Source of the DNA: Obelidium mucronatum
Taxonomy: Eukaryota > Chytridiomycota > Chytridiomycetes > Chytridiales > Chytriomycetaceae
Assembly: GCA_025765595.1 (NCBI GenBank)
Contig: JAIVFH010000033.1
Location: 186,001 to 250,000, forward strand
Direction: 5' to 3'
DNA: 64,000 nt
The position numbers were made by a program, and so were the translations under genes. The notes below the pieces were generated by a model, which made no database searches, had not been told where the DNA came from, and saw nothing but the letters and a program-made list of their open reading frames with translations. Position 1 is the stretch's first letter. Each line of letters opens with the position of its first letter. Of the stretch, positions 1,251 to 40,385 are shown piece after piece.

Positions 1251-1277
1251 GAGGCAAACGAAATTTTGTTCAAAAAA

Positions 1278-5640: not shown

Positions 5641-5714
5641 TGCTCCATACAGGGATCGAACCTGTGACCTTGGCGTTATTAGCACCACGCTCTAACCAAC
5701 TGAGGTAATGGAGA
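5641..5714 (-). tRNA. tRNA-Ile (AAT), left arm; empty integration site
   Basis: A 74-nt cloverleaf on the minus strand: anticodon loop CTAATAA (AAT), T arm CAGGTTCGATCCCTG, D-loop core CAGTTGGTTAGAGC. The first acceptor pair is T-C, and the D stem starts C where the right copy has G, so two pairs are weak. This gene is uninterrupted, whereas its right-arm twin is split at AGTTGG by element copy 2. It therefore documents the empty site. Confidence 0.88.
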
Positions 5715-7010: not shown

Positions 7011-7214
7011 TAATTTAATATCTAAACACTGAAATTGGCATGGAGAATACGCGGATTGTTGTCAGTCGACAGGTGTGGTTATGTTGGAGGATGCGTTATC
7101 ACCCCAAACCTAACCTCTTGAGAGCTTACCGGCCACTGCTACAATGACTAGAAGTGCTGTAAAAGATGCGCAAAAAAGCATAAAAAATTCAATATAATTA
7201 AAGTTTCATCATTT
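7011..7214. other. Unassigned spacer
   Basis: About 200 bp between the PIF1 and RecQ fragments. No match elsewhere in the window was noticed. Confidence 0.4.
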
Positions 7215-7710
7215 CACAGAATTCTTTACGTGCCATGCTCTCTGGAGACACATACAATAGTTTTATATTTTTACTTCTGACTTTCTTAATAACCTTATCT
7301 CTGTTTTCTGCTGTGATTAGAATTCAAGTTTGTTGGTTTCAGTATGCTGTCAACACAACCTTCGCTCATTTCACAATGCAAAGCAGCTGCAGCAATATTT
7401 TTGCTGAGGCATTGCGACACTTGGTCATCCATAAGGGCCAGAAGCGGTGTGACAACAATGGCTGTGTTTGGCTGAGCAATTGCCGCTACTTGGAATGGCA
7501 GCAACTTTCCGGCGCCTGTTGGAAGAAGAAGCAAGCAAGACTCTCCTGCCAAGAGCTTTCAAATGACTGGTTCCTGATTGTCTCGAAAGGTGTCAAAGCC
7601 GAACACGTTGCGAAGGATTTGATGTGGGTTTGTATCTGATAAAACACAAGTCAGAGTTGTCCAAATCAAAAGCTGCCACCACCTCCGTCTAGTGCCTGCT
7701 CCGCTCTGGC
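7215..7710 (-). pseudogene. RecQ helicase 5' fragment, direct repeat of 27,145-27,640
   Basis: Minus-strand DNA matches exons 1-3 of the element RecQ gene: Walker A region (L-L-P-T-G-A-G-K-L), the block V-V-T-P-L-L-A-L-M-D-D-Q and the start of V-S-P-E. It is truncated in exon 1 exactly where copy 1 begins (7,711) and at about 7,215 in exon 3. It shares with the 27-kb copy the TGA in place of CGA (7,559-7,561) and the S-to-L change after the Walker A lysine. The two therefore descend from one already damaged gene. Confidence 0.8.
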
Positions 7711-7890
7711 AGGGTTGTGGTGCGATAGTTCATGGCAATAAAAATTTTGGCACCACCCAAAAATGGAATATTCCAGGGCGCGGCAACGGAGAATGCCCAT
7801 CGGCACCGCATTCAAACTTTAAGGGGGGCATTTTAAAATATTCTTTATTGCCTCGGGGGTGTTGGAATGGCGTTTTTGTGGGTTTTGGGT

Positions 7891-7963
7891 GGTGTACTAT
7901 TTGGGTGTCGTGATATCGCAAAGCCATGATTTTTGAAATATCACGACACCAAAATAGTACACC
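7891..7963. repeat. Subterminal hairpin of copy 1
   Basis: Arms 7,891-7,916 and 7,938-7,963 are inverted repeats of 26 bp with one mismatch (GGTGTACTATTT and GTGTCGTGATAT parts) around a 21-nt loop. Copy 2 has the same stem at 37,965-38,074 with a longer loop. Its place about 180 bp inside the element end in both copies suggests a conserved element feature. Confidence 0.85.
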
Positions 7964-10404
7964 CCCCAACCTGACGGCTAAACTGATGCCACCGATTGCG
8001 ATGGCATTGTAAACACTTTGTTATATCTATTACGTCAAGTGGACTCCATATTCAATGATATTAACATATTCTTTATTCATACAGGCACCCAACGTCAACC
8101 ACAAATGAAGCGAAGCTACGACGCAATGCGACCTGCCTTCCCAACGACGCGCACCGGAAGCGATCGGACGCCGCGATGGGAAGCCGCTTACACGAACGAC
8201 TACTATGCGAGTTGTTTGACCGATCCAGACGAGCCAGTTCCATCGGACGCCATCGGTTGCTTCGGATCATCGGAATCCAATGGCGATCCGATGGTTGGTG
8301 TCGTGACTGCGATTCGTGCTATTCCAAGATGTGCGTTCCAAACAATTTTTTTCTTCAAACACACCGCAGCCAAACCAACTCGCCGCCACACCACCGCCAT
8401 GACCACCAGATCACCACGTCAAAACACCGCAGCCACCACTTCAGCTCCCCAAGGCCGCGTTATCGACGGATTTTTTGAGCCGGTGGTTGGCGGTGTCGCT
8501 CCTACTGGTCTGTATGTTGGTCAAGTACCCGTCCACCCAGGCTGGCTCGAGCGTCAGGGGTACAAACACCAGGACCTCTTTCAGTATCGGGGCTGGATGT
8601 TCCAAGGTGGACAGTGGGTTGAGGCGGTGCGTATTTAATTATTTAATTCACCTCTTCTTCAAACTAAAGATATGATTTATTTTTTAGTGCTCGTGTGGAG
8701 ACCTTTTCTATAAGGGACGTCACAACCAAACTCAAGGCCTTCCTGTCCTCAACCGGTGCAAACGATCAGGCAAAGCAGCAAAAGTTCACTTTGTGCACGT
8801 CGGGTCCGGAGCTCTGTGTGCCAATGACAACACTGGGATCTGCCACAGCTGTATTGCCGCTCCTCAGGCTGGTGCCGACGAACCTCTCCCACTTCCGCCG
8901 CGCCCTGTTCTCCCATCAACCTGAAGTGTCTCTGACCGTGCGTCGTCATCCAACTTGTCAGCTGCAAAGAAACACAAGAAGACCGCCCGTCCAAAAGGCT
9001 CTACCAACGTCTACGTTGCTCCTGATGCTGCTGCCCTAATCCCAACGGTTCCTGTGTCTGACGACGATGGAACTTCTGATGGAGAACCAACCAAGCGAAA
9101 GAGCAGCGGATCTGGCAGGACCAAGAGACCCGTGTTGAAAAAGGATAAAGCTGCTGCTACAGCCAAGGCTGCCAAGGATGCTGTCCTTGCTCGGAAGTAC
9201 AAGGTTGAGGATTACTTCCCTCATACTCGAGCTGGCTGGATCAAGGCGGGGATGCTACCACACAGTGACTTCAAAGTTGACAAAATCTCTCAGTTCGCCA
9301 AAGTGTTGATGAAAGGACAAGCAGGGGATATGGGTCGTCTCATTGACGAAACCTGTAAGTAAAAAATTACCCTTGAGTCCGAGCCAGCGAGGCGAAACCC
9401 GGGATAGTACAAACGTGCGAAGCACGGGAGAAAATTTTGACAATTTGGGCTCCAGTTGTAGCTCAAAACGACTACCATTTTTGTCAATTTCCTGTGAATA
9501 TCTGTCTCTCCTTTTCCTTTTACTTATGTTAACTTTTAAAATTTTAGGGGCTGACAAGACAGAGACAGTCGGAGGAATCGAAACTTTGGTCACTTATGGA
9601 GATATACGGTCATACATGTACATCTTCATAATCTTTTTTCGGGGGCATCCGGCTTTTGACAAATTGGTGACAATTATTGTGAAGTCGTACAACCCTCAAG
9701 ACCATCTCAAGGTTGCCCACTTCAAGACTGTGATTGAGTGGATCTGCGACGTCTGTACCCCAAAGAACAATGACCCAATGAAGGCAGATTGTCAACACAA
9801 TTCTGTCTTCATGTATATGCGTCGCTACTTCGAGTTGGTGGATCTGTACCTTACGAATGCGGAACTTAAGGACCCTGGAATCAAGGAGAAGTACAAGGAC
9901 TACAAGTGGAACTTCCTTCCACTTTACGGTTATTTCTTCTTGCTGCAGCTTCGGACGGCGCCCAAGTTGAATCCTCGAGTTCCAGACCAGTACGGCTTCG
10001 AACTCGGGGACGATGAGGTGGCTGAAGAAGAGGAGGCGGAGGCTGAGGCTGATGAAGCCAACGCTTCTATGACAGCTGAGGAGCGTGTTGGTGTGGCGAT
10101 TGTTGATGCAATGGCTGCTGTTGCTGGTGTTGGTGTGAAAATTGTAAGTTTTTTTTTTTCCATTTCAACTTTTCGGTTTTTCATTCAAATATTTTTAGGG
10201 GGTGATGGAGCAAGGACATGTTATATTTGGGAAGATGGGGGTGTTGTCCAAGCTTGCTGCCGATGCAAGTGTCAAGCATGGGTGCGAGGAAAACTGTTCC
10301 TTGCACATGCAGCTACTTAAGGCAGAACAGAAAGCGGCTGTGATGAGAAAGATGCAGTGAGTTTTTCTCAATCAACTTGATATCATGCAATCATGTAAAT
10401 AATG

Positions 10405-10546
10405 TGTTGTAGAGGGACTGGAAGCGGTGCTGGTTCTGTAGACAGGTGAGCTGATTGTTGTGGACACTACAGAGATTTTGGAGAGAATTCTTAAACTTTA
10501 TTCCCAAACATGGAGCTTGCAACATGAGTTTCATGTGCCTCCAACA
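10405..10546 (-). repeat. LTR (minus-sense 3' LTR)
   Basis: 142 bp, TGTTG...CAACA, the same length as the other LTR with two substitutions. Confidence 0.9.
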
Positions 10547-12726: not shown

Positions 12727-12868
12727 TGTTGTAGAGGGACTGGAAGCGGTGCTGGTTCTGTAGACAGGTGAGCTGATCGTTGTGGACACTAGAGAGATTT
12801 TGGAGAGAATTCTTAAACTTTATTCCCAAACATGGAGCTTGCAACATGAGTTTCATGTGCCTCCAACA
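12727..12868 (-). repeat. LTR (minus-sense 5' LTR)
   Basis: 142 bp, TGTTG...CAACA, followed by the TAATG target duplication at 12,869-12,873. Confidence 0.9.
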
Positions 12869-13493
12869 TAATGTTTTTGTTAGCAACGATCTTAACCGTC
12901 ATGACAACCTTGAAACTCAGATGGAGGCTGCTACAAATCCTGAGAATCGTATGAGGGAGAAACTTTTCTTCCTCCATTCTGGGAGATTCAACGGGGGTGA
13001 AGGACTTCGAAACTTGGCCATGTCCAACTTCAATGATCAATGTCTGGGCCGCTCAGGAGAGCTTCGTTCCATCGAATGGTTCGATATTTTCAGTTATATG
13101 GCTCCCTGTACAAGTAAAGACCCGGAGACCCAGTTTGAGCCACCGAAGATGCAAGGGCTCAAGGTGTTGTTGGTTGGAACCAAGATGTTTGTGAGTATAA
13201 CTTTAATCAAGTTATTGATCAATAACTAACTACAACATCTCCAGCGATCTCTTGCTGCTAGAGGTGCTTCAGATATGCGCTACATGATTTTTGGTCAACA
13301 TCGTCTTGCGTTGTTTGATGTGTTGGCAACTCTCGGACTGATGGAATTTGAAAATCGGCACATGTATCCGACTGAAGATAGTAAGGACAAGTGGCGGAAG
13401 TTGATGGATGGATACAAAGGCGGTTTTGGGGATATGAAGCTGTTTCCTGGAGATTACAAAACTTTGGCGATGTCAACGCTGTCTCATTATAAT

Positions 13494-13510
13494 GCCTTCA
13501 AGAAAATGAT
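13494..13510. repeat. LINE target-site duplication, 5' copy
   Basis: GCCTTCAAGAAAATGAT, 17 bp, repeated exactly at 23,936-23,952. It occurs once in the uninterrupted YR gene of copy 2. Confidence 0.97.
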
Positions 13511-13567
13511 AAAAAAAAAATCTTTAAAACTCCACCGCGCGCAACCACAAACAAACCATACCACCGC

Positions 13568-23712: not shown

Positions 23713-23935
23713 GGGTGCACAATATAGGTGGAAACTCAAGACGAGTTGGAGGATGGGAGCGGGGAAGTGGTAGTGGTAGTAGACTGGGGATCTACAAGGG
23801 GGGTTAGGTGGAAATCATCGCAACCCGGAGTATGAGGCCGGGCCTTACTAATCAATCCGAGTAATTGGGGGGAAAATAGTAGTTCGACAAGTGTTTATTA
23901 CAAAATACAGTTCATACCAAACCAAAAAAAAAAAA

Positions 23936-23952
23936 GCCTTCAAGAAAATGAT
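23936..23952. repeat. LINE target-site duplication, 3' copy
   Basis: Exact 17-bp repeat of 13,494-13,510, directly after the poly-A tail. Confidence 0.97.
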
Positions 23953-25639
23953 GAAGGCGTTGGGACTCTGGCTCACAGGAGACAAGACTTCTGGTGCTTT
24001 CGAAAATCGGTACTTCTTGGACTTTCCAATGGCTGTAAGTACTGTTTATCTATCTGAATTGATCTTAACAATATGATAGGTTTACCGAGTACTGGCGGGT
24101 TTTACTGCCAGGGGTGGAATCTGCAAAGCGCCTTGGAATATTGAAGTTCCAGATGAACTCCTGAATGAGTGCGGGCTGTTCCCTGAAGCCTCTGAGTTTG
24201 CTGATGCTGTCAAAGATGAAAATCACCCACTTTGGAGCTCTACCGTTGACCGTTGCGACTTTCAAGACCAGATCAAAGAGCGTGGCGGGAGAAAAACACT
24301 CACGCTCTTTGGGGAGCTGATTCTTCAAATGAAGAAGTCTGTCTTGCAGTTGCTGGCTTGGCTGATGCACTACAAGCTGTACCCAACTCGCAACTGTGAG
24401 TTATATTTAGTATAGCCAAAATTTTGTAATCTAACTATTTGGAAATATCAGATAAAGCAATCTGTAATTGCCTTCCGAAACTCTTTGAAAACCCTCTGTG
24501 GGCTGAATTCTGCAGTAAAATGGCAGACACAATGGTCAAGTACAATGCTGACCAAGCTGCAAAAGAACAACTTGAGGCTGCCAGAGCCAGTGGTGACTTG
24601 CTCTCCTTGTTTTCAGGGCTGGATCCAGAGTCCCAGAAGCAGCTGCTGGAAGAGTTGAAGGATCTCCGATTGGAGATTGCTCAAGAAACAGCCCAAGTTT
24701 TGGAATCACTGGGTACTGGCAGCGCAAGGCTTGAAAAGGCCATTGCTGACCTTAAAGATTCTATGGATGCGCGTTTCGATGGTCTCCGCAACTTGTTGAA
24801 CACAGATAGTGGGGAGGCAGCTGCCTTCAGCCGCTTCCAAGTAAACCCTCAATCGCAGCAAATGCAAAACCTATTGCGTGAGGAGATTGGTTTGGATATG
24901 GGAGAAGATCCCTTGGTTGTGTTGGGTAACGCTAATTCCGTTCCGGTGGTTGGTGGTCCCCCTGTTGCTGTCCAAGATGGACCGGATGCTGGTTTACAGT
25001 TTGAGATTGGAGTCGTTGTTAAAGAGCTTGTGGAAGGCACAGAAGTTGAACAGTTTCAAAAGTTGGGATGCATCCGATACTCTCGACTTTATAAACCTCG
25101 AGCAGATAGGAAGCAAGATGAGGACAACTTTCCTCAAGTTGATTTACCAGATGTGTCTGTTCTTCAAACTCCTTCCAAAGTACGTCATTCCTTGTTACTT
25201 TGTTTTACTATTTCACCAGCTGTATGAGTTCTTCTGGAATACCCGTTTCCGTCTCCAGAAACTGGCCGCCAGACACAAAAATAGTTGGAAGAAAGAGGCT
25301 GGCAAGAGCGATTCCAAAACGTGAAACTACAATCTCTGGAAACAGTATACAAATGTTTTGGAGTTGCTTGACATTGAAATTGAAGCCCTACCTCTGGCTG
25401 AACGAACAGGAAAGACAAAACTCCAGCTTGTTCATATTGTTTGTGATTCCATTCAAAAAGGTGGGAGATGGAGAATGGGTGGCAAGTTTTCTTTGTCGCA
25501 AATGGCAAAACAGAGTCTGACAGCGCTGGGCACATCAAAGTATCAAAAGTTTGGAGTTGATGGTAAAGATGATGATGATGTTGTATTTATTCGTGCAGAC
25601 TATTGACAAATAAAAGTGTTCAAACTTTGTCTTAACCTT

Positions 25640-27675
25640 CCAACATGGATTCCCAGCTTTATTTATTATTATACAACTGCGCCAGATTTTTTCTCTTCTT
25701 AACAACTGGTTTACCTTTCCACATGCCCTTCAGCAAAAACGCGCCCCAAAACAACATTCTCAATCTGCTTCCCTTTCAAGCATCCAAAAAAAGAAATAAA
25801 GTTACTACTACTCTTCAACTCTCTTTTAATTCCCTCTGTTTCCTTGTACTCTTCCCCAAATAAACATCGAACTCCATTTTTGCACACTTCTGCATTCAAA
25901 AAACATTCGCTCTGTTCAAGAAATTCAATAATATCATCCATAAATTCAATAGATTCAAAAACCGTTTGATTTGAGATTTTCACGTCAAATACTTCTTTGA
26001 GGGTAAGAATGGGCCCCTCCTTCTTGCAGTAATAACATTTCCCACAATCGGCATCCAAGGGAGAGTCAAAAAGAGTTGCAAATAGCTTCCAGAAACATTG
26101 GGGACGAGACCCTGCTTCTTTCTCAGTGAAACCTCCTTCAACTCTTCCACAACTTTTCTGCAAAACAAATACAATTCCCCATTATCCAGCTTTCTACAAA
26201 CTTTATACTCCCACAATTCAGGTTGGTAGTTGGTGAATTCAATGATACCTTCTCTAAACAATTGGACAAGAAGGCGTTGAGGTGGAGCTGACTTTTGAGA
26301 CAGCAGAGAGTCAACCAGGGCCTTGTTTCCTTCGACAGAGAGACTGTACCCGTTCTCTACGCCAATCAAATGGGATGTGTAAGCATAGTCGTTGTCGGTG
26401 AGAATAGTAGTGCATGACCCCAATTTAATTTCCTCCTTACGCGCAGCCCGCCCAACCTCTTGCAGGTACCGCTCAGGAGACTGAGGTATAGTATAGTGAA
26501 TTACAAAACTAATTGCTGCATTAATTCCCAATCCGAAGGCTATAGTGGCCACAACCAACTTGTTTGGAATACAGTCCCCCTTCCCGCACAACCGATTTCT
26601 AACCTCACCCTCCATTATCCACTCTAGCACTTCGCGTTTCTTGTTGGCAGGAATTTGGCTGTGGTACTCTCTCGCACAGTATCCTCCAGACTTCAGGAAC
26701 TTAGTGAGATTGTCCACGTCTGTTCGTCTCTGACAGTAAATAATTCCAGTCCCATTAAAAGGCGACTGAGGCGACGTGTATTTATGGAGCTGCTCCAATA
26801 GAACGTGTCTTTTATTCGAGCTTGATGTTTTGATACAGTCCAAATACAGGTTTTGTCTGAAGATGCTTGTTTTAAATATGCAGTCAGCATCAATCCCAAA
26901 CTGGGAACATAGTTTTGCTGATACGTGGGGATTTGCGGTGGCTGTTGTGCAAAGAATTGCTTTTGGTGACAGCTTGGTAGCAAACACAGGTAGCATTGAA
27001 TAAATTGGCCTGAATCCTTCCCCCCATTCAATGCAGCAGTCTAATATAAAAATTAATTCGCACCTTTCAAATCTATAATCTTTGATCTTACGGGCTTCGT
27101 CCATGACAAGGAGGGAAACACCAACTAGTTTCATCTTTTCACTGAATTCTTTACGTGCCATGCGCTCGGGAGACACATACAATAGTTTTATAGCTTTACT
27201 TCTGACTTGCTTAATAACCTTATCTCGGTTTTCTGTGGTGATTAGAATTCAAGTTAGTTGATTTCAGTATGCTGTCAAATACAACCTTCGCTCATTTCAC
27301 AATGCAAAGCAGCTGCAGCAATATTTTTGCTGAGGCATTGCGACACTTGGTCCATAAGGGCCAGAAGCGGTGTGACAACAATGGCTGTGTTTGGCTGAGC
27401 AATTGCCGCTACTTGGAATGGCAGCAACTTTCCGGCGCCTGCTGGAAGAAGAAGCAAGCAAGACTCTCCTGCCAAGAGCTTTCAAATGACTGGTTCCTGA
27501 TTGTCTCGAAAGGTGTCAAAGCCGAACACGTTGCGAAGGATTTGATGTGGGTTTGTATCTGATAAAACACAAGTCAGAGTTGTCCAAATCAAAAGCTGCC
27601 ACCACCTCCGTCTAGTGCCTGCTCCGCTCTGGCTTTATGGTTGCTCTCATGTTGGTTGACGTCAGATTCCGCCAT
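25640..27675 (-). pseudogene. RecQ-type helicase gene of copy 1, inactivated
   Basis: Start ATG at 27,675 (MAESDVNQHESNHKA). Exon 2 keeps the full N-terminal sequence DTNPHQILRNVFGFDTFRDN, typical of RecQ, which copy 2 lacks. Lesions: CGA to TGA (27,482-27,484), Walker A G-A-G-K-S changed to G-A-G-K-L, loss of one Asp codon in L-M-D-D-Q, a frameshift near 26,100-26,130, and a 19-bp deletion near the C terminus. The helicase core 27,182-26,170 is otherwise collinear with copy 2. Confidence 0.88.
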
Positions 27676-27678
27676 TGA

Positions 27679-28434
27679 TTAAAAATTAGGAAGAGCGTTA
27701 GCACTGGATAATGCACAGCCAAATACACGAACATGTGGAGAAGTGGATTCAACTCCATATCGGAACAATAAGTCCATTCTAGTCAATCGTGAAGATGTTT
27801 CGAGATTTTGAGCAAGATCCGCAATAGGGACTGACAGATCTTCACCATCCGCCATGGTACCTCTAGGTACAGCGCCCCCACCTGCTGCAAACCAGCGACT
27901 GTGCTCAGCAAGGGCAAATTGTCTCACAGATTTGGCCTCAACTTTTGAAGCAGAAACCCTTGCACAAAAGGCATCCCATTGATTATAAATTGTGCCAACT
28001 AATATGAAATAAAGCAAACATCAGTATTTTGAATAAAGTTTGAAAATGATACTTGCGCACTTCCTTTGAAAAGTAATTTCGATGAACACACTCAGCCAGA
28101 CCTTGTAGGAAGCCCCATTTGAAGGTTTTTGCCAGAGTTATGAGTGGGGTCGTTGACAGATTCAAGATCAGATAGATGGAGTGATTTGGATCGGCAACCA
28201 TCTTCAAACTCTTTCCAATCTGGAAAAAAGAACTGGAGAAACTCTTCTGGCACTGGAATATCCCATGAAACCTTGCCAATATCATTTCTTGGAGAAAACC
28301 CAGCCAGAATTTGTGTTATCTGTGGTCAAAGTTAAAAAAGAAAGACAAGATAGCTGTGGAACACTCACAGCTTTAGGAAAATCCTTGAAATTTGTCTTTG
28401 GAGTGAGATGTGGGTATCCCAAGTTCTTCGAGTG
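27679..28434 (-). pseudogene. Diverged Crypton-type YR gene, 3' half
   Basis: Minus-strand pieces align to the main YR gene: a piece ending NFKDFPKA matches ...YFLDFPMA. After an intron, ILAGFSPRNDIGKVSWDIPV and PEEFLQFFFPDW match VLAGFTARGGICKAPWNIEV and PDELLNECGLFP. Then IYNQWDAFCARVSASK and a tail ending in NALPNF. This pattern (A-G-F, then P-x-E-L...F-P after the catalytic Tyr) is typical of fungal Ndc10/Crypton YRs. A stop and frame change lie within 28,090-28,160. The stop codon (27,681-27,679) is 3 nt before the RecQ ATG on the same strand. Confidence 0.7.
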
Positions 28435-29323
28435 AGTGGACAAAATGAAAAAAATTCCCTTTGGACCATCACAAATTTATTGGGAGCAAGGTGAGCAACA
28501 CACACAAAAACACTTGGACAAGGCAGAAACTCTGATGGAGGGTTACAATCTGTTTAAAAACATCAAGCTTACAGCCAGCTGATTGGTAAACCCAATTAGC
28601 TCAAGTGCCCATCATGATGCAATCAAAGCCATGCACTTTGCCCTCTATTGACCAAAAGTGCACCCATGTCGAGCGCTTTTACTTACTGTTTAGACTGAAT
28701 TGTTGAACAGGCACACTCATACCAAAATGAATCTGTTTTCAGCAGTCCTTTTTTGCAGCATAGAAGCGACTCCAAAATCAGATCCCAAGAGGCAGGACAA
28801 GATTTAACTTGCTAAACGTACATTGGAAGCATATCAATGAATTTCTGGAGACTTGGGTCTATTCAGTGTTGGAAGTTTATCGAAAAAATTTAGAAGGACA
28901 ACACTTCCAATGAAAATATCATGGATACCTTGAATTTTGGGTTGCATGGGTCCATTGCCAATGGGTATGCATCGCAATTGTTTAGGGTCGAGCATGTAGC
29001 CTGAGATTGGTTGTAAACGGGATATAGATTACTTTATTATAATAAACGCAATATACATGTGTTGTACTTTAGAGAGTATCTGCTTGTGATTTGAAAGGTC
29101 CCTGTGTTTCTTCCCCCTGAGAATATCATGCAGCTCATTGAAACACACTTGCTGTGGAGGATTAAAATTGACAGAAAAACAAGCTTTGCCTGATAACTCT
29201 TTCTCAGTTAGTCTATTGATGCAGAAGCATCATGAAAACACACTTTTTTTCTCTCCGAGTGGGTCAAAAACCCTCTATAAGTATAGCCTGGACATAATGG
29301 ACTATGTTTCAATAAATTGCATA

Positions 29324-29342
29324 TCTCCATTAGCTCAGTTGG
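29324..29342 (+). pseudogene. tRNA-Ile (AAT) 5' piece, split by element copy 2
   Basis: TCTCCATTAGCTCAGTTGG, the acceptor 5' strand and D arm up to AGTTGG. The rest of the tRNA resumes at 38,258 after the inserted element. Confidence 0.93.
29337..29342. repeat. Insertion core direct repeat AGTTGG, left
   Basis: Six bases shared with 38,258-38,263, present once in the uninterrupted tRNA-Ile of the left arm. Short identical cores are what tyrosine recombinases leave on integration. Confidence 0.85.
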
Positions 29343-29357
29343 GTATAACGCAAGTGT

Positions 29358-29366
29358 GATAGTTCA
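29358..29366 (+). promoter_or_regulatory. Putative recombinase binding motif, end B
   Basis: GATAGTTCA, 15 bp inside the element, followed by AGGACAA and AAAAATTT. The same order occurs inverted at end A (38,233-38,241). The recombinase-site role is inferred. Confidence 0.55.
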
Positions 29367-29384
29367 GGACAAAAAAAATTTGGC

Positions 29385-29409
29385 GGTGCACTACAAAATG
29401 TAGTACACC
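29385..29409. repeat. End B hairpin
   Basis: GGTGCACTACA and TGTAGTACACC, 11-bp arms with one mismatch and a 3-nt loop. The GTACTA-containing arm resembles the outer part of the end A stem. Confidence 0.75.
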
Positions 29410-30140
29410 AACAGAGCAACACCAACTTTACTGCACCGCATCACAAACAATAAAGAAACATGTAGAAAGAAATAAAAGGGCAGGGGGAAATGGCTGAAGG
29501 ATCGAGAAGGGGGTTTGAGACTGTTTACGGTCCAGTTTGGTGCAGCGATAACTCGAGCGCTGCGCACAACACTTCTCTGCACCCTGCTGAGTTCATCTCG
29601 ATGGATCGGCGGAGCTATCTGAGCTATCTGAGAGCCCCAGCACTACAGGCGGCATCGGCAGCAGCGGCGGCAGGTCGGATCGCTCCAGAAGTTTACTCCA
29701 ACCGCCTGGTTGCGACGGATATCCCGAAGGCGGTAGTCGGCGCTTTTCATTGTCGATATGTGAGGAATCAAGGCTGGGCCGGGAAAGGGGGGGTGTGGAG
29801 GTTGGGGCGGGAGTGTGAAGGGACACAGCGAACCTTTTGTGTGTTGAAGAAAAAAAAGAATCGAGATAGGATAAAAATAGATTCTAATTTCCGAAACACG
29901 TTTGAGTGTTTACGTACCGTTGACACTTATTGTAGCTTATTGCTGTACATTTTTGTTGGTTTCTCTTCGGAGTGAGTGATGGAAGTCAGTTGGCTGTTCG
30001 CTAAAAAATAAAATAAAAAAAAGATTGCAAAAAAAAAGACAAACAAAACAACCAGCTGTCTAGTCGTCGTCTTCAACGAGAAATACCACTGATAGAAACA
30101 AATCCAGTACTTAAGCGAAGCTGGTGCGATTCCATGGCAT

Positions 30141-30736
30141 GTAAGTTTCTTGGCCCCTGTCATGTCTTTTTTCTTCTATCTGTCGTTATCAATCATCCCC
30201 AAACGGGGATGGTTGATTTAACTGCCGCTATCGTATCTCCGTTTGGAGATATAGCGGGAGCGGCTCCTTTGATTTGAGTGTATTTGGCTGTGCATTATTC
30301 AACGCTAACGCTCTTCCTAATTTTTAATCATCCAGCGCCGAAGCCAGTCGTAGTCTGACGCGACGCCCTATTCTATATTCTGACACGATGTGCTATTCAA
30401 TTCGCTGCCGAAAAATTGCTTTAGAGTAAGTTTCTTGGCCCCTTTCATGTCCTTCCGTTTTTTTCTTCTGTCTGTCGTTATCAATCATCCCCAAACGGGG
30501 GTGGTTGATTTAACTGCCGCTATCGTATCTCCAAACGGAGATATAGCGGGAGCGACTCCTTTTAATTTGAGTATATTTAGCTGTTCATTATCCAACGCTA
30601 ACGCTCTTCCTAATTTTTAATCATCCAGCGCCGAAGCCAGCCGTATTCTGACGCGATGTCCTATTCACCGACGATGTCCTATTCAATTAGCCGCCGACGA
30701 TGTCCTATTCAATTAGCCGCCGAAATATTGCTTTAT
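30141..30736. repeat. Two 285-bp tandem repeats with internal hairpins
   Basis: Copies start GTAAGTTTCTTGGCCCC at 30,141 and 30,426. Each holds two inverted repeats (ATCAATCATCCCC facing GGGGATGGTTGAT, and TATCTCC facing GGAGATA) and a segment matching the 3' end of the diverged YR gene (GCTAACGCTCTTCCTAATTT). The second copy ends in 26-bp iterations of ACGATGTCCTATTCA (30,671-30,722). The array lies upstream of RecQ in copy 2 only. Confidence 0.85.
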
Positions 30737-30963
30737 GTCTCGCGCTAACAACGCTCGCAACAGACAGCTAATTTTGAGACAATAAAAACCGGGAAACTAG
30801 ATAATCAATTTAAATCCCCATTAAACATCAGTCTTGAATCTGTAAATCGCGGTCATTGGTTTATAAATCAAGAGTTTTTTTTTGTTTGTTTTTATTATTA
30901 ATAAAAAGTGTCAAAAACAAGTACGCGCCGGCTGTATCTTGTACTCACCATAGAAAGAAAGCA

Positions 30964-32993
30964 ATGGCGGAATCCGACGTCGACGAACATGAAAGCAACC
31001 ATAAAGCCGGAGCGGAGCAGGCACTAGACGGAGGTAGTGGCAGCTTTTGATATGGACAACTCTGACTTGTGTTTTATCAGATACAATTCCGCAATCAGGA
31101 ACCTGTCATTCGAAAGCTCTTGGCAGGAGAGTCTTGCTTGCTTCTTCTTCCAACAGGCGCCGGAAAGTCGCTGCCATTCCAAGTCGCGGCAATCGCTCAG
31201 CCAAACACAGCCATTGTTGTCACACCGCTTCTGGCTCTTATGGATGACCAAGTGTCGCAATGCCTCAGCAAAAATATTGCTGCAGCTGCTTTGCATTGTG
31301 AAATGAGCGAAGGTTGTATTTGACAGCATACTGAAACCAACTAACTTGAATTCTAATCACCACAGAAAACAGAGATAAGGTTATTAAGCAAGTCAGAAGT
31401 AAAGCTATAAAACTATTGTATGTGTCTCCCGAGCGCATGGCACGTAAAGAATTCCGTGAAATGATGAAACTAGTTGGTGTTTCCCTCCTTGTCATCGACG
31501 AAGCCCGTAAGATCAAAGATTATAGATTTGAAAGGTGCGAATTAATTTTTATATTAGACTGCTGCATTGAATGGGGGGAAGGATTCAGGCCAATTTATTC
31601 AATGCTGCCTGTGTTTGCTACCGAGCTGTCACCAAAAGCAATTCTTTGCACAACAGCCACCGCAAACCCCCACGTATCAGCAAAACTATGTTCCCAGTTT
31701 GGGATTGATGCTGACTGCATATTTAAAACAAGCATCTTCAGACAAAACCTGTATTTGGACTGTATCAAAACAACAAGCTCGAATAAAAGACACGTTCTAT
31801 TGGAGCAGCTCCATAAATACACATCGCCTCAGTCGCCTTTTAATGGGACTGGAATTATTTACTGTCAGAGACGAACAGATGTGGACAATCTCACTAAGTT
31901 CCTGAAGTCTCGAGGATACTGTGCGAGAGAGTACCACAGCCAAATTCCTGCCGACAAGAAACGCGAAGTGCTAGAGTGGATAATGGAGGGTGAGGTTAGA
32001 AATCGGTTGTGCGGGAAGGGGGACTGTATTCCAAACAAGTTGGTTGTGGCCACTATAGCCTTCGGATTGGGAATTAATGCAGCAATTAGTTTTGTAATTC
32101 ACTATACTATACCTCAGTCTCCTGAGCGGTACCTGCAAGAGGTTGGGCGGGCTGCGCGTAAGGAGGAAATTAAATTGGGGTCATGCACTACTATTCTCAC
32201 CGACAACGACTATGCTTACACGTCCCATTTGATTGGCGAAGAGAACGGGTACAGTCTCTCTGTCGAAGGAAACAAGGCCCTGGTTGACTCTCTGCTGTCT
32301 CAAAAGTCAGCTCCACCTCAACGCCTTCTTGTCCAATTGTTTAGAGAAGGTATCATTGAATTCACCAACTACCAACCTGAATTGTGGGAGTATAAAGTTT
32401 GTAGAAAGCTGGATAATGGGGAATTGTATTTGTTTTGCAGAAAAGTTGTGGAAGAGTTGAAGGAGGTTTCGCTAAGAACGAAGCAGGGTCTCGAGCAAAT
32501 GCAAAAACTATTCACAACTCCCCAATGCTTCTGGAAGCTATTTGCAACTCTTTTTGACTCTCCCTTGGATGCGGATTGTGGGAAATGTTATTATTGCAAG
32601 AAGGAGGGGCCGATTCTTACCCTCAAAAAAGTATTTGACGTAAAAATCTCAAATCAAACGGTATTTGAATCTATTGAATTTATGGATGATATTATTCAAT
32701 TTCTTGAACGGAGTGAATGTTTTTTGAATGCAGAAGTGTGCAAAAATGGAGTTCGTTGTTTATTTGGGGAAGAGTACAAGGAAACAGAGGGAATTAAAAG
32801 AGAGCTGAAGAGAAGTAGTAACTGCTTTTCTTTTTTTGGATGCTTGAAAGGGAAGCAGATTGGGAATGTTGTTTTGGGACGCGTTTTTGCCTGGGAAGCT
32901 ATTCTAAAGCTGAAGGGCATGTGGAAAGGTAAACCAGTTGTTAAGAAGAGAAAACTTACGGAAAATCTGGCGCAGTTGTATAATAATAAATAA
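30964..32993 (+). CDS. RecQ-family DNA helicase of element copy 2
   Basis: 3'-5' superfamily 2 helicase. Proposed exons: 30,964-31,033, 31,081-31,312, 31,366-31,506, 31,558-32,993. Walker A LLPTGAGKSLPF is intact. Splicing the 51-nt intron at 31,507-31,557 restores motif II as D-E-A-H-C followed by E-W-G-E-G-F-R-P. Then come TTATANPHV (motif III), GIIYCQRRTDV (IV), ATIAFGLGIN (V) and QEVGRAARKE (VI). A cysteine cluster DADCGKCYYCKK follows, as in the RecQ zinc domain. There is no RQC or HRDC domain that I recognise. Exon 2 carries a 44-nt net deletion relative to copy 1, which breaks frame with exon 1; translation would need another start or splice. Confidence 0.85.
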
Positions 32994-33045
32994 AGCTGGG
33001 AATCCATGTCGGAAGGTTAAGACAAAGTTTGAACGCTTTTATTTG

Positions 33046-36000
33046 TCAATAGTCTGCACGGATAAATACAACATCATCATCATCTTTACCATCAACTCCA
33101 AACTTTCGATACTTTGATGTGCCCAGCGCCGTCAGACTCTGTTTTGCCATTTGCGACAAAGAAAACTTGCCACCCATTCTCCATCTCCCACCTTTTTGAA
33201 TGGAATCACAAACAATATGAACAAGCTGGAGTTTTGTCTTTCCTGTACGTTCAGCCAAAGGTAGGGCTTCAATTTCAATGTCAAGCAACTCCAAAACATT
33301 TGTATACTGTTTCCAGAGATTGTAGTTTCGCGTTTTGGAATCGCTCTTGCCAGCCTCTTTCTTCCAACTATTTTTGTGTCTGGCGGCCAGTTTCTGGAGA
33401 CGGAAACGGGTATTCCAGAAGAACTCATACAACTTTTGAAATTATATTAGGAACAGTAAAACAAAGTAACAAGGAATGACGTACTTTGGAAGGAGTTTGA
33501 AGAACAGACACATCTGGTAAATCAACTTGAGGAAAGTTCTCCTCATCTTGCTTCCTATCTGCTCGAGGTTTATAAAGTCGAGAGTATCGGATGCATCCCA
33601 ACTTTTGAAACTGTTCAACTTCTGTGCCTTCCACAAGCTCTTTAACAACGACTCCAATCTCAAACTGTAAACCAGCATCCGGTCCATCTTGGACAGCAAC
33701 AGGGGGACCACCAACCACCGGAACGGAATTAGCGTTACCCAACACAACCAAGGGATCTTCTCCCATATCCAAACCAATCTCCTCACGCAATAGGTTTTGC
33801 ATTTGCTGCGATTGAGGGTTTACTTGGAAGCGGCTGAAGGCAGCTGCCTCCCCACTATCTGTGTTCAACAAGTTGCGGAGACCATCGAAACGCGCATCCA
33901 TAGAATCTTTAAGGTCAGCAATGGCCTTTTCAAGCCTCGCGCTGCCAGTACCCAGTGATTCCAAAACTTGAGCTGTTTCTTGAGCAATCTCCAATCGGAG
34001 ATCCTTCAACTCTTCCAGCAGCTGCTTCTGGGACTCTGGATCCAGCCCTGAAAACGAGGAGAGCAAGTCACCACTGGCTCTGGCAGCCTCAAGTTGTTCT
34101 TTTGCAGCCTGGTCGGCATCGTACTTGACCATTGTGTCTGTCATTTTACTGCAGAACTCAGCCCACAGAGGGTTTTCAAAGAGTTTCGGAAGGCAATTAC
34201 AGATTGCTTTATCTGATATTTCCAAATAGTTAGATTAAAAAATTTTGGCTATACTAAATATAACTCACAGTTGCGAGTTGGGTATAGCTTGTAGTGCATC
34301 AGCCAAGCCAGCAACTGCAAGACAGACTTCTTCATTTGAGGAATCAGCTCCCCAAAGAGCGTGAGTGTTTTTCTCCCGCCACGCTCTTTGATCTGGTCTT
34401 GAAAGTCGCAACGGTCAACGGTAGAGCTCCAAAGTGGGTGATTTTCATCTTTGACAGCATCAGCAAACTCAGAGGCTTCAGGGAACAGCCCGCACTCATT
34501 CAGGAGTTCATCTGGAACTTCAATATTCCAAGGCGCTCTGCAGATTCCCCCCCTGGCAGTAAAACCCGCCAGAACTCGGTAAACCTATCATATTGTTAAG
34601 ATCAATTCAGATAGATAAACAGTACTTACGGCCATTGGAAAGTCCAAGAAGTACCGATTTTCGAAAGCACCGGACGTCTTGTCTCCTGTGAGCCAGCCAA
34701 TAGCTTTGATGTCAGCAGCAGACACACCACATAGCCGCAAGTAGTAGCAAAAGGCTTTCCGTTTCAAGTGAGTGACCTTTCCGTCAACTTCCAGTCCCAA
34801 CGCCTTCATCATTTTCTTGAAGGCATTATAATGAGACGACGTTGACATCGCCAACGTTTCGTAATCTCCAGGAAACAGCTTCATATCCCCAAAACCGCCT
34901 TTGTATCCATCCATCAACTTCCGCCACTTGTCCTTACTATCTTCAGTCGGATACATGTGCCGATTTTCAAATTCCATCAGTCCGAGAGTTGCGAACACAT
35001 CAAACAACGCAAGACGATGTTGACCAAAAATCATGTAGCGCATGTCTGAAGCACCTCTAGCAGCAAGAGATCCCTGGAGATGTTGTAGTTAGTTATCGAT
35101 CAATAACTTCATTTAAGATACTCACAAACATCTTGGTTCCAACCAACAACACCTTGAGCCCTTGCATCTTTGGAGGCTCAAACTGGGTCTCCGGGTCTTT
35201 ACTTGTACAGGGAGCCATATAACTGAAAATATCGAACCATTCGATGGAACGAAGCTCTCCTGAGCGGCCCAGACATTGATCATTGAAGTTGGACATGGCC
35301 AAGTTTCGAAGTCCTTCACCCCCGTTGAATCTCCCAGAATGGAGGAAGAAAAGTTTCTCCCTCATACGATTCTCAGGATTTGTAGCAGCCTCCATCTGAG
35401 TTTCAAGGTTGTCGTGACGGTCAAGATCGTTGCTAACAAAAACATTATTTACATGATTGCATGATATCAAGTTGATTGAGAATAACTCACTGCATCTTTC
35501 TCATCACAGCTGCTTTCCGTTCTGCCTTAAGGAGCTGCATGTGCAAGGAACAGTTTTCCTCGCACCCATGCTTGACACTTGCATCGGCAGCAAGCTTGGA
35601 CAACACCCCCATCTTCCCAAATATAACATGTCCTTGCTCCATCACCCCCTAAAAATATTTGAATGAAAAACCGAAAAGTTGAAATGGAAAAAAAAAAACT
35701 TACAATTTTCACACCAACACCAGCAACAGCAGCCATTGCATCAACAATCGCCACACCAACACGCTCCTCAGCTGTCATAGAAGCGTTGGCTTCATCAGCC
35801 TCAGCCTCCGCCTCCTCTTCTTCAGCCACCTCATCGTCCCCGAGTTCGAAGCCGTACTGGTCTGGAACTCGAGGATTCAACTTGGGCGCCGTCCGAAGCT
35901 GCAGCAAGAAGAAATAACCGTAAAGTGGAAGGAAGTTCCACTTGTAGTCCTTGTATTTCTCCTTGATTCCAGGGTCCTTAAGTTCCGCATTCGTCAGGTA

Positions 36001-37823
36001 CAAATCCACCAACTCGAAGTAGCGACGCATATACATGAAAACAGAATTGTGTTGACGATCTGCCTTCATTCGGTCATTGTTCTTTGGGGTACAGACGTCG
36101 CAGATCCACTCAATCACAGTCTTGAAGTGGGCAACCTTGAGATGGTCTTGAGGGTTGTACGACTTCACAATAATTGTCACCAATTCTTCAAAAGCCGGAT
36201 GCCCCCGAAAAAAGATTATGAAGATGTACATGTATGACCGTATATCTCCATAAGTGACCAAAGTTTCGATTCCTCCGACTGTCTCTGTCTTGTCAGCCCC
36301 TAAAATATTAAAAGTTAACATAAGTAAAGGGAAAAAGAGAGACAGATATTCACAGGAAATTGACAAAAATGGTAGTCGTTTTGAGCTACAACTGGAGCCC
36401 AAATTGTCAAAATTTTCTCCCGTGCTTCGCACGTTTGTACTATCCCGGGTTTCGCCTCGCTGGCTCGTACCTCGCCTGATCGCTCGGACTCAAGGGTAAT
36501 TTTTTACTTACAGGTTTCGTCAATGAGAGTTTTCCACTTCCGACCCATGTCCCCTGCTTGTCCTTTCATCAACACTTTGGCGAACTGAGAGATTTCGTCA
36601 ACTTTGAAGTCACTGTGAGGTAGCATCCCCGCCTTGATCCAGCCAGCTCGAGTATGAGGGAAGTAATCCTCAACCTTGTACTTCCGAGCAAGGACAGCAT
36701 CCTTGGCGGCCTTGGCTGTAGCAGCAGCTTTATCCTTTTTCGACACGGGTCTCTTCGTCCTGCCGGATCCGCTGCTCTTTCGCTTGGTTGGTTCTCCATC
36801 AGAAGTTCCTTCGTCGTCAGACACAGGAACCGTTGGGATTGGGGCAGCAGCATCAGGAGCAACGTAGACGTTGGTGGAGCCTTTTGGACGGGCGGTCTTC
36901 TTGTGTTTCTTTGCGGCTGGCGAGGTGGATGGCGACGCACGGTCAGAGACACTTCGGGTTGATGGGAGAACAGGGCGCGGCGGAAGTGGGAGAGGTTCGT
37001 CGGCACCAGCCTGAGGAGCGGCAATACAGCCGTGGCAGATCCCAGTGTTGTCGTTGGCACACAGAGCTCCGGACCCGACGTGCACAAAGTGAACTTTTGC
37101 TGCTTTGCCTGATCGTTTGCACCGGTTGAGGACAGGAAGGCCTTGAGTTTGGTTGTGACGTCCCTTATAGAAAAGGTCTCCACACGTAGAGCACTAAAAA
37201 ATAAATCATATCTTTAGTTTGAAGAAGAGGTGAATTAAATAATTAAATACGCACCGCCTCAACCCACTGTCCACCTTGGAACATCCAGCCCCGATACTGA
37301 AAGAGGTCCTGGTGTTTGTACCCCTGACGCTCGAGCCAGTCTGGGTGGACGGGTACTTGACCAACATACGGACCAGTTGGAGCGACACCGCCAACCACCG
37401 GCTCAAAAAATCCGTCGATAACGCGGCCTTGGGGAGCTAAAGCGGTGGCTGCGGTGTTTTGACGTGGTGAGCTGGTGGTCATGGCGGTGGTGGGGCGGCG
37501 AGTTGGTTTGGCTGGGGTGTGTTTGGGAGTTAAGAGAAGAAAAAAATTGTTTGGAACTTACATCTTGGAATAGCACGAATTGCAGTCACGACACCAACCA
37601 TCGGATCGCCATCGGATTCCGATGATGACGCGTCGTATTCGTGGCCCTCAGCCGTCGATCCGAAGCAACCGATGGCGTGCGATGGAACTGGCTCGTCTGG
37701 ATCGGTCGAACAACTCGCATAGTAGTCGTTCGTATAAGCGGCTTCCCATCGCGGCGTCCGATCGCTTCCGGTGCGCGTCGTTGGGAAGGCAGGTCGCATT
37801 GCGTTGGCGTAGCTTCGCTTCAT
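33046..37823 (-). CDS. Crypton/Ndc10-type tyrosine recombinase of element copy 2
   Basis: Ten exons (37,823-37,562, 37,511-37,255, 37,193-36,512, 36,299-35,704, 35,648-35,491, 35,432-35,126, 35,073-34,630, 34,584-34,269, 34,212-33,485, 33,432-33,046) give 1,378 residues with all phases agreeing. An N-terminal Cys cluster (C-x2-C ... C-x7-C-x2-C, residues 174-229) is a likely zinc fold. Catalytic candidates are R713 (GELRSIEWFDIF), H856 and R859 (VTHLKRKAF), W881 and Tyr895 (FENRYFLDFP), followed by the family-typical A-G-F and P-D-E-L ... L-F-P stretch. The C-terminal 130 residues are basic. Such enzymes cut and rejoin DNA through a 3'-phosphotyrosine. The gene is uninterrupted, and its stop is 52 bp from that of the converging RecQ gene. 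Confidence 0.88.
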
Positions 37824-37964
37824 TTGTGGTTGACGTTGGGTGCCTTTATGAATAAAGAATATGTTAATATCATTGAATATGGAGTCCACTTGACGTAATA
37901 GATATAACAAAGTGTTTACAATGCCATCGCGATCGGTGGCGTCAGTTTAGCCGTCAGGTTGGGG

Positions 37965-38074
37965 GGTGTACTATTTTGGTGTCGTGATATTTCAAAAATC
38001 ATGGCGAAAAAATAGTTCAGGAACTATTTTTGCCCCGATCTTTTTGCGATATCACGACACCCAAATAGTACACC
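37965..38074. repeat. End A nested hairpin of copy 2
   Basis: Outer arms 37,965-37,990 and 38,049-38,074 (26 bp, one mismatch). The loop holds a second hairpin, AAAAATAGTTC facing GAACTATTTTT (38,008-38,031). Copy 1 has the outer stem with a loop 38 bp shorter, lacking the inner hairpin. Confidence 0.85.
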
Positions 38075-38232
38075 ACCCAAAACCCACAAAAACGCCATTC
38101 CAACGCCCCCGAGGCAATAAAGAATATTTTAAAATGCCCCCCTTAAAGTTTGAACGCGGTGCCGATGGGCATTCTCCGTTGCCGCACCCTGGAATATTCC
38201 ATTTTTGGGTGGTGCCGAAATTTTTATTGCCA

Positions 38233-38241
38233 TGAACTATC
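38233..38241 (-). promoter_or_regulatory. Putative recombinase binding motif, end A
   Basis: GATAGTTCA on the minus strand, 16 bp inside the element, followed inward by TGGCAATAAAAATTT. It mirrors end B, together forming imperfect subterminal inverted repeats of about 28 bp. Confidence 0.55.
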
Positions 38242-38257
38242 GCACCACAACCCTTAG

Positions 38258-38318
38258 AGTTGGTTAGAGCGTGGTGCTAATAACGCCAAGCTCACAGGTT
38301 CGATCCCTGTATGGAGCA
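38258..38318 (+). pseudogene. tRNA-Ile (AAT) 3' piece, split by element copy 2
   Basis: Starts at the AGTTGG core and contains the rest of the D arm, anticodon loop CTAATAA, variable region, T arm CAGGTTCGATCCCTG and acceptor ATGGAGC plus A. The new upstream flank (CCCTTAG) does not rebuild the 5' half, so the gene is disrupted. Confidence 0.93.
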
Positions 38319-38381
38319 TTTTGGATAGACACAATTCAAACTAATACATTAATAAAGGCTACACTGCGCAAGTGGACAACG

Positions 38382-38454
38382 GCCCGGCTAGCTCAATCGG
38401 TAGAGCGTAAGACTCTTAATCTTAAGGTTGTGGGTTCGACCCCCACGTCGGGCT
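38382..38454 (+). tRNA. tRNA-Lys (CTT), right arm
   Basis: 73 nt. Acceptor GCCCGGC/GTCGGGC, anticodon loop CTCTTAA, intact T arm. Inverted twin of 5,505-5,577 with a single difference before the T stem. Confidence 0.95.
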
Positions 38455-40385
38455 ACTTGTGGTTTCTAGAACAATTTTCTGTAAATTGGAGTATTAAACT
38501 GACATTCCAAAACCTGAACAGATGCCCTCCATTGATAAGGTGCAAGTGGGCTCGCATCAACCTGGCAAGTACCCTGACCCACTAGATTGGGGGTATGATT
38601 GGTTTTCACTATTAACCAAAGAAACCCAACAAAACCCAACTGACCCGACCTCCTTCCATTCTTCCAAACAGGTTTGTCACTTACAATAAGTTTGAGGTTC
38701 AATTTTTTTTGGTTATAACCTTCAATTTTTCTGTTTGCTATTAAAATGTCATTCTGCAATAGTTTATATGCATAAATTCTTAACTTTTTTTATTTTATTC
38801 TCATTCCAAACTATTTATTTCTACTTCTTTCCATACAACAGACCATTCCCCAAAGACCTGCAGGATAATCCTGACAGGTTTGGGTTTCACGTTTACCCTG
38901 ACACCCAAATCCAAACAGTCAGCTTTGGGATGAAACCAACCCAACCCAAACCCAACCTGTTTGCACCTTATCCATTGCCCTCCAAAACAATCAATCACCA
39001 CATTGTCCGATGGTGGTGAGTTCAACAACCAAACAACTTAAAGTTGACCCCTTCAATTCAACTAGCAGCTCAGCCCCATGCCCTACAACATCTTATATAT
39101 TTCACCAAACAGCAAGATGTAGAACATTACTGCCTATTAATTCAATAAAACCTTCTTTTATTTCTTGATTGATCTTTGTCAAAGCCAAACTGTACAAGTG
39201 AGACTGCATTCGGCACAAAATGCAATTCATGTGCTGATGGCTGCTTTTGCCTTTCCAAAGTAACCTGCAGCTGACTAGTTGATATTGTGGAAGGAAACCC
39301 AGTAATTCTTGGAGGCATGCAGTGCCCTACAACACAAGCAAATATTGTTTGACTGGGATGTGTTGCTAACACCTGGTAAAGTTGTGTAGCTTTGTCTATG
39401 TGTACCTAAGAAAGAGTCTTATATGACAGCGGCAATTTCTTGTGGAGTAGCATCAGGGCGAGCTGTTATATTTGGACAAAATCAATATGTTGTCACACAA
39501 GTTAAATTAATTCCTTTAGCAGCTGTACATAAGTTACAAGAGCAAGGATCACAACTGGAAAGATTCCAAGACAATTCGATCTTGCAAATCCCACCTCTCA
39601 CAAAATTGTTTAAAAACTCCACCAACACAACCTTGTTTCTACCCATACTATTATAAAGCCCAACTAACCCATAAGGTAATATATATTAGAAGATAAAAGA
39701 ATGCAATAAGAACAAATATAAAAGAATGCAATAAGAACAAATAAAAATGAAGAAACAGAATTTGTTGAAACAATATATTCAGCTCAAATTCAATTGTTCC
39801 AAAATCTTTCTAACCATTTGCTTTTGTTTCCGATTCCACAGCCAGCTGCATTTATATAAAAATACAAAACTGAGTCATCAACATTTTCAAAAAAAACTTT
39901 CAAAGCTCTAGAGATAGATTTGATTTTAGATATAAATGATCAACTGAGTCAACCAAAACTCTGTTTTGGGATGCACATCCCAATTGATAACAATGGTGTA
40001 ACTTCAGTAATAACACCCTTTCTGACAGCTTTCCAAAAAAAACTCTTATGTTAATAACCCTCCTTAAAAAACAGATTGGTCAAATGTTGCCACTAGTCTC
40101 TTGCACAGAGTATAATATCCTCCTCTGACAATTGATCCGGAGTCAGTTGACCCTACTGCATGAAAACATTGAAACGCAGAACTTAAGATGCCACAGCACA
40201 AAGAGTTATAGGAGAACGCTAAACTCAGTGGAACCTTTTTGGAGATAACAAGACTTTGCAAAGAGTTGCAGCATGTCATGACTACTTAATTTCAAGGCAT
40301 GGGGAGAAAAAGCCAAAAACTACATTCTGCACTCTGTTGCTGAGGTTAAATTATAATAATTTTTTTTTGATAGTGCGTATTGGCG
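38455..40385. other. No gene seen (right arm intergenic)
   Basis: Inverted copy of 3,556-5,504 with only short, unrecognised open frames. Confidence 0.5.

Follow-up and report, generated by a model that had tools for sequence, protein, structure and literature searches.

How can mobile elements of the Crypton type gain copies if their tyrosine recombinase (YR) only cuts and pastes? In our reading this is an open question, and it is raised by a locus in the chytrid fungus Obelidium mucronatum. The window analyzed here is a stretch of 64,000 nucleotides, corresponding to positions 186001-250000 of a contig of 330,056 bp in a genome of 48.3 Mb. It contains an 8,915-bp element (29343-38257) with two genes, one encoding a YR and one a RecQ helicase, that is inserted in a gene for tRNA-Ile(AAT). 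We consider it probable that this is a Crypton-type YR DNA element which has acquired a RecQ helicase as part of its core, which circularizes and inserts into tRNA genes, and in which RecQ helps to copy or process the excised form. With a helicase kept under selection and an exact empty site nearby, the question of copy gain becomes testable.

The element was delimited by comparison with an empty site in the same window. The tRNA-Ile(AAT) gene is interrupted in its D-loop, and two direct repeats of the 6 bp AGTTGG enclose the element exactly (Table 1). The left flank terminates in CTCCATTAGCTCAGTTGG and the right flank opens with AGTTGGTTAGAGCG; both are parts of tRNA-Ile(AAT) and have AGTTGG in common. 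According to standard tRNA structure AGTTGG lies in the D-loop, with the D-stem GCTC/GAGC on its two sides. An inverted segmental duplicate (1037-6722) holds the same cassette as the filled site, with an intact tRNA-Ile gene. When the filled flanks, minus one AGTTGG, were compared with this empty site, 880 of 880 bases aligned in one ungapped block with the junction inside, and 872 of them were identical. AGTTGG is present as a single copy in the empty site and at both ends of the filled site. The flanks of the two sites in the window diverge by only 0.2-1.6%. The element is a bounded unit, inserted exactly with a 6-bp repeat, and its empty site is present. An initial annotation of this DNA had placed the boundaries at the very same bases, and its view of the unit as a mobile element was right. 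The split tRNA gene is not restored, as no tRNA was called at either element junction by ARAGORN or Rfam. The duplication itself (1037-6722 and 27901-42939) is recent and inverted, and comprises a cassette of genes for tRNA-Gly, -Asp, -Lys and -Ile (97-99%) that is partly found on a further contig, C203, as well.

The YR gene is located on the minus strand and in our splice model consists of 10 exons, separated by GT-AG introns, that encode 1,378 amino acids. This independent model gave the same length as the initial annotation, and the two genes converge as described there, with stop codons 52 bp apart. The YR was aligned with divergent YRs of the same genome (six rows, mean column identity 33%); rows were joined from exons by hand and catalytic residues were read by eye. 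In the rows covering the respective columns, the first Arg, the His, the Trp and the Tyr were each present in 5/5, and the Arg of H-x-x-R in 4/5 (L034 lacks it). The previously assigned R, H-x-x-R, W and Tyr align with four divergent YR rows of the genome, one of which has no H-x-x-R Arg, and the reported N-terminal Cys cluster was located in exon 3. YR catalysis is predicted from these residues.

To which YRs is this protein related? An NDC10_II YR is encoded elsewhere in the genome (C40:255105; 94 bits, E 7.7e-27). The YR core of the element aligned with it at a score of 105, which was reached by 0/1,000 shuffles (mean 49, maximum 89) and by 0/364 real protein segments (maximum 90); these segments overlap one another and come mainly from RecQ homologues. 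In this alignment the catalytic H, R, W and Y of both proteins fall into the same columns. Neither NDC10_II nor GCR1_C was detected by Pfam in the element YR, though both are present elsewhere in the genome (GCR1_C above the cut-off in 12 of 15 listed places). The C-terminal piece gave only bpX0 in Pfam (E 0.11), the six aligned rows gave no Pfam match, and no DUF3435 match was obtained for the YR. In the protein collection the YR matched a single entry, P0001, which is a gene model from this contig, and exon 7 found no relative among viral contigs. A GCR1_C domain in the C terminus, suspected by eye, was unsupported (138 and 172 of 1,000 shuffles reached the pairwise score in two runs). The 'fungal Ndc10/Crypton arrangement' claimed initially is upheld in that homology to the NDC10_II YR, with catalytic residues in register, points to a Crypton-type YR; in its strict sense it is unsupported, because neither NDC10_II nor GCR1_C was detected. 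In our reading the YR is distantly homologous to the Ndc10/CryptonF YR, and a GCR1_C domain cannot be detected in it. Judged by sequence, the element appears to belong to a divergent Crypton-like lineage, and we do not file it under CryptonF.

Proteins of the RecQ family are 3'-5' helicases. The second gene, on the plus strand, encodes a RecQ-like superfamily 2 (SF2) helicase with a zinc cluster, as had been noted. The Pfam domains DEAD and Helicase_C passed the cut-off, and RecQ_Zn scored below it (16.5 and 17.4 vs 25 bits). By sequence the closest solved chain is 4tmu, named RecQ (E 3.6e-51), and the nearest chains carry the names RecQ, RECQ5 and Bloom protein. By eye, SF2 motifs 0 to VI, DEAHC and four zinc-binding cysteines were recognized in the spliced product. 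An apparent DEAR box is caused by a 51-nt in-frame intron; the spliced sequence reads DEAHC. The first exon (30964-31033) is out of phase with the helicase frame, so the N terminus and the start are uncertain. A protein search yielded 2,810 matches at E 1e-3 out of 7,997 scored proteins, and identities among the best 120 of these matches were at most 39%, except for two Obelidium proteins. Long eukaryotic RecQs fell outside this search, because candidates were limited to 0.55-1.75x the query length.

Is the pairing of helicase and recombinase inherited? A decayed second copy (copy 2) with the same gene order had been recognized in the initial annotation. Indeed, it is found inverted, in pieces from 7711 to 27680, 93.8-97.4% identical to the element and broken by two insertions. 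Between the two copies the RecQ gene shows 23 synonymous and 19 nonsynonymous differences, corresponding to a ratio of nonsynonymous to synonymous differences per site (pN/pS) of 0.23 (p 2.6e-6). For the YR gene 34 synonymous and 38 nonsynonymous differences were counted (pN/pS 0.32, p 2.5e-6). Both genes have been under purifying selection between the copies, which indicates that the helicase was maintained together with the recombinase. The true constraint is likely stronger than pN/pS shows, because copy 2 contains stop codons and has been decaying for some time. The pN/pS between copies is the best evidence that RecQ works in the life of the element. Further support for an inherited pairing is provided by a partial copy on C203, in which the left end and the 5' RecQ sequence are collinear apart from insertions.

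These copies also bear on a composite origin, in which RecQ would stem from a separate repeat, for example a telomere-linked or Academ-type one, and the YR element would have inserted into or beside it. Fungal subtelomeric repeats and Academ transposons do carry RecQ genes (PMC4522978, PMC3627910; these and all other papers are cited for the portions of their text that were available), and truncated RecQ pieces adjoin PIF1 pieces near tRNA-Ile cassettes. In contrast to such repeats, for which no YR is reported alongside RecQ, the present unit has both genes between its ends, which fit the empty site exactly. In copy 2 RecQ and YR adjoin each other, and on C203 the left end is collinear with RecQ. 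Moreover, Pfam revealed no transposase domain in either gene, and the window lies at 186-250 kb of the 330-kb contig, a position that may be away from a chromosome end. A composite origin is therefore quite improbable.

The element had been described as two genes and nothing else recognizable. The two genes stand, but further features had been overlooked, namely the split tRNA-Ile gene, the inverted repeats at the termini, a palindrome of 122 nt and a pair of hairpins in the left part. When the terminal 60 nt of both ends were compared, one of them reversed, they scored 23; this was reached by 0/1,898 random inverted pairs inside the element (maximum 17) and by 0/2,000 shuffles. The outer arms of the palindrome are identical in copy 2, and its inner part is shortened there. 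The hairpins sit in a tandemly duplicated unit of ~285 bp (30141-30423 / 30426-30735). A pattern of the right end (≤3 mismatches) was found at six places in the genome, exactly in copies 1 and 2 and with 2-3 mismatches at four more; the backward control was found at one. A ~50-bp motif near the right end (38146-38196) recurs on C345 and C493 (L021, L023), maybe as ends of a related element, and these loci have no tRNA. A candidate coding open reading frame in the left part (29466-29975) was rejected by eye, because the C203 copy has indels there.

From these features the following cycle is proposed as the most likely one for the element. The YR would bind the inverted-repeat ends and recombine the two AGTTGG copies, so that a circle would be released and an intact tRNA gene left behind. 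Reinsertion would follow when the single AGTTGG of the circle recombines with its counterpart in a tRNA-Ile D-loop. The loss of one tRNA-Ile gene would be harmless, because the host has many. Both the circle and the recombination at the repeat are suggested by analogy with known YR biology (PMC3212892). RecQ might open the circle, or else the palindromic stretch close to the right end, allowing host polymerases to copy or repair it, and copying aided in this way would raise the copy number beyond cut-and-paste. A role of RecQ in replication or processing is speculative, and somewhat more apt to fail than to hold. Less likely still, and in our view doubtful, is a full eukaryotic counterpart of bacterial tRNA-integrating islands, with crossover in the D-loop of multicopy tRNA-Ile genes, precise exit, a RecQ-replicated circle and right-end palindromic DNA as origin.

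How often has the element entered tRNA-Ile genes? A 5' pattern of tRNA-Ile (≤1 mismatch) was found at 16 places in the genome, comprising 14 intact genes and two split ones (the element site and C203:19514). The 3' pattern (≤3 mismatches) was found at 22 places, 21 of them intact and one the right junction of the element; such counts vary with the patterns used. In total, 21 intact tRNA-Ile genes, one insertion with both junctions and one further left junction were found. Seven extra 3' halves without the usual 5' half were tried as further insertions and rejected; they belong to intact genes with a different acceptor stem. C203 carries the same left tRNA junction as the window. A 414-bp stretch (28028-28441) is common to the split-site flank and C203 (2.7% divergence) and absent from the empty site. 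The split tRNA on C203 may represent the same event as the insertion in the window, because flanking sequence is shared. The divergence between C203 and the element copy is 2.7-5.9% in the flank, 6.6-8.7% in the left end and 3.9% in the RecQ part, values that are not decisive on an independent insertion. Two readings result. The same insertion may have been duplicated, after which the element was lost scarlessly from what is now the empty copy; conversion between paralogues could mimic this. Alternatively, two insertions may have occurred at the same base, one in the window and one on C203, which like scarless loss would be typical behavior of a YR. The element may prefer tRNA-Ile as a target, to judge from one, perhaps two, insertions.

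Several results weigh against the reading of the element as a circularizing Crypton-type unit aided by RecQ. Only one insertion has both junctions, and no right junction was found on C203. Copy 2 gives no second insertion junction, because at the right it passes into a piece of RecQ that lacks AGTTGG, and its left end is absent. No circle junction was found in the assembly, where the left end (≤3 mismatches) occurs twice, each time after a tRNA half. Compared with shuffles, the terminal 128 nt on the right side show no better folding (z -0.24) and the terminal 108 nt on the left side only slightly better folding (z -2.54). For the YR no credible Pfam match was obtained, the sole match at E up to 1 being Baculo_PEP_C (E 0.32), and matches to the PDB were not credible either (E 2.8 for the profile; E 0.094 and 0.8 to unrelated enzymes). 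A single-sequence AlphaFold model of exon 7 was unusable (mean predicted local distance difference test 50.8, best PDB match E 1.6). Comparison of the YR profile with the C40 protein by hhalign was weak (E 0.038; 3/100 shuffles were as high), and the related YRs L037 and L042 aligned less well with C40 than the element YR (4 and 19 of 1,000 shuffles reached their scores).

A final point of this kind concerns the helicase. Other YRs were found on C16, C56, C114, C144, C366 and C12 at 25-35% identity, together with a short one on C203 (48%). The RecQ search of the genome, which like the YR search scored best candidates only, gave nine matches, none of them on these six contigs with diverged YRs. 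The helicase is thus not a general need of such YRs, and as far as seen the pairing is a trait of this lineage rather than of all such YRs. This would suit a cut-and-paste Crypton-like element with RecQ as a passenger that is retained through hitch-hiking or for the sake of the host and takes no part in transposition, and many Cryptons have been described with a YR alone (PMC3212892). On the other hand, purifying selection on RecQ across the two copies is no weaker than that on the YR, and RecQ lies beside the YR within the element in both window copies. We consider mere cargo rather unlikely and favor a helicase that serves the element.

Which known systems resemble the element? Fungal CryptonF elements share with it a YR with R-H-x-x-R-Y and 6-bp terminal direct repeats, which most of them have, and a circular intermediate has been proposed for them (PMC3212892). 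The element has R-H-R-Y, as far as sequence tells, the 6-bp repeats and a YR core homologous to the NDC10_II YR of the same genome. It differs in the undetected GCR1_C domain, in terminal inverted repeats, which CryptonF elements lack, in the added RecQ gene, the right-end palindrome and the insertion in a tRNA gene, and in a 1,378-aa protein without match to the NDC10_II or GCR1_C model. Starships are likewise fungal YR elements with direct and sometimes inverted repeats, and some families insert in 5S ribosomal DNA (rDNA) (PMC12134995). In contrast to these elements with DUF3435 captains, the present one has no DUF3435 match and no large cargo, comprising two genes in 8.9 kb. Prokaryotic tRNA-gene integrative elements also use a YR and a tRNA stem-loop as core, and archaeal sites can reach the D-loop (PMC8371274); unlike them, our element is eukaryotic, leaves the split tRNA gene unrestored and carries a helicase. 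YR integrases in eukaryotic genomes are further known from cryptophyte polinton-like viruses, for which no tRNA genes were found within 1 kb of the insertions (PMC12220804), and from nimavirus-type elements tied to 28S rDNA or telomeres, whose telomere-associated YRs are called distinct from Cryptons (PMC10871703).

The insertion site also suggests a Dada-type DDE transposon, which inserts in multicopy small RNA genes, with the YR-like protein not being an active enzyme. A short target duplication together with inverted repeats would also fit Dada. Against this, transposase domains are absent from both genes by Pfam, and the large gene aligns with the NDC10_II YR, catalytic residues included, so that we regard a Dada-type element as very improbable. 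Insertion within such genes, tRNA genes included, is indeed a Dada feature, but Dada has a DDD/E transposase in place of a YR, and the same source describes CryptonV as microsatellite-specific (PMC8869645). Targeting of tRNA genes is known for retrotransposons as well (PMC5006619). The main text of Kojima and Jurka 2011 (PMC3212892) mentions neither 'helicase' nor 'tRNA'. A full-text literature search, mostly without subscription papers or Repbase Reports, revealed among the texts it covered neither a helicase-bearing Crypton nor one inserted in a tRNA gene. In the literature covered by it, no earlier description was found of a RecQ helicase, a Crypton-type YR and insertion in a tRNA gene combined in one eukaryotic element; RecQ in Academ was already known. 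The element would be a eukaryotic YR DNA transposon in a tRNA gene, a niche favored by bacterial and archaeal YR islands (PMC8371274).

Table 1. Features of the element, its insertion site and further copies in the window (positions count from the first base of the window)
Feature	Position	Strand	Basis
Element, 8,915 bp	29343..38257	.	exact insertion vs empty site
tRNA-Ile(AAT) 5' part, split gene	29325..29342	+	pattern and sequence comparison with intact genes
AGTTGG, left copy (D-loop)	29337..29342	+	6-bp direct repeat
AGTTGG, right copy	38258..38263	+	6-bp direct repeat
tRNA-Ile(AAT) 3' part, split gene	38258..38318	+	pattern and sequence comparison
Empty site: intact tRNA-Ile(AAT) in inverted segmental duplicate	5641..5714	-	window self-comparison and tRNA calling
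Left imperfect terminal inverted repeat	29354..29400	+	local score 23
Right imperfect terminal inverted repeat	38200..38245	-	local score 23
Left-part hairpin 1	30224..30264	+	z -5.46 vs 200 shuffles
Left-part hairpin 2	30514..30552	+	z -4.64 vs shuffles
122-nt palindrome near right end	37959..38080	.	arms found; z -11.51 vs shuffles
RecQ exon: motif 0, LPTGAGKS, motif Ia; preceding exon uncertain	31081..31312	+	sequence reading and Pfam
RecQ exon	31366..31506	+	splice model
RecQ last exon: helicase C domain, zinc cysteines	31558..32993	+	splice model, Pfam, solved-chain matches
YR exon 1	37562..37823	-	splice model
YR exon 2	37255..37511	-	splice model
YR exon 3, Cys cluster	36512..37193	-	splice model
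YR exon 4, N-terminal segment with FFRGHP, common to other YRs of the genome	35704..36299	-	splice model and alignment
YR exon 5	35491..35648	-	splice model
YR exon 6, first catalytic Arg	35126..35432	-	splice model and alignment
YR exon 7, H-x-x-R, W, Tyr	34630..35073	-	splice model and alignment
YR exon 8	34269..34584	-	splice model
YR exon 9	33485..34212	-	splice model
YR exon 10 to stop codon	33046..33432	-	splice model
Copy 2: right end and YR exons 1-5	7711..10408	+	93.8% to 35439-38254
Copy 2: YR exon 6 and exon 7 in part, interrupted by retrotransposon	12868..13513	+	97.4%
Copy 2: rest of YR (gene on + strand here) and RecQ (minus strand)	23933..27680	-	94.9% for 23968-27680
5' RecQ fragment from another truncated copy	7202..7710	-	sequence comparison

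Some observations on the surroundings were made in addition. On C144 (45803-51820; L037, L042) two diverged YR genes converge ~1.5 kb apart, with an intact tRNA-Ile gene ~2.4 kb away from the nearer match. A distance of ~4.7 kb separates a YR match on C114 from a tRNA-Ile gene. Both loci possibly represent more tRNA-associated elements; no split tRNA-Ile was found in them. A fragment resembling a related but distinct YR (27683-28441) adjoins the filled tRNA site, and its counterpart on C203 is 48% identical to the element YR.

A piece of a PIF1-like helicase (6722-7202; E 1.4e-4, below the Pfam cut-off) is joined to the RecQ 5' fragment. Three truncated RecQ copies, one in the window and two on C203, share one breakpoint, to the base, immediately ahead of an AGTTGG within RecQ (31472-31477); the two on C203 are not independent, because they are 99.8% alike. 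One of the inserts in copy 2 has a length of 2.46 kb (10402-12868), lies between 145-bp direct repeats (97.9%) and is maybe a short element resembling those with long terminal repeats (LTRs); its two longest open reading frames had no Pfam match. The other, in YR exon 7 (13514-23932), is a non-LTR retrotransposon with an A-rich strand, reverse transcriptase and endonuclease domains, an A tail and an intact 17-bp target duplication, GCCTTCAAGAAAATGAT.

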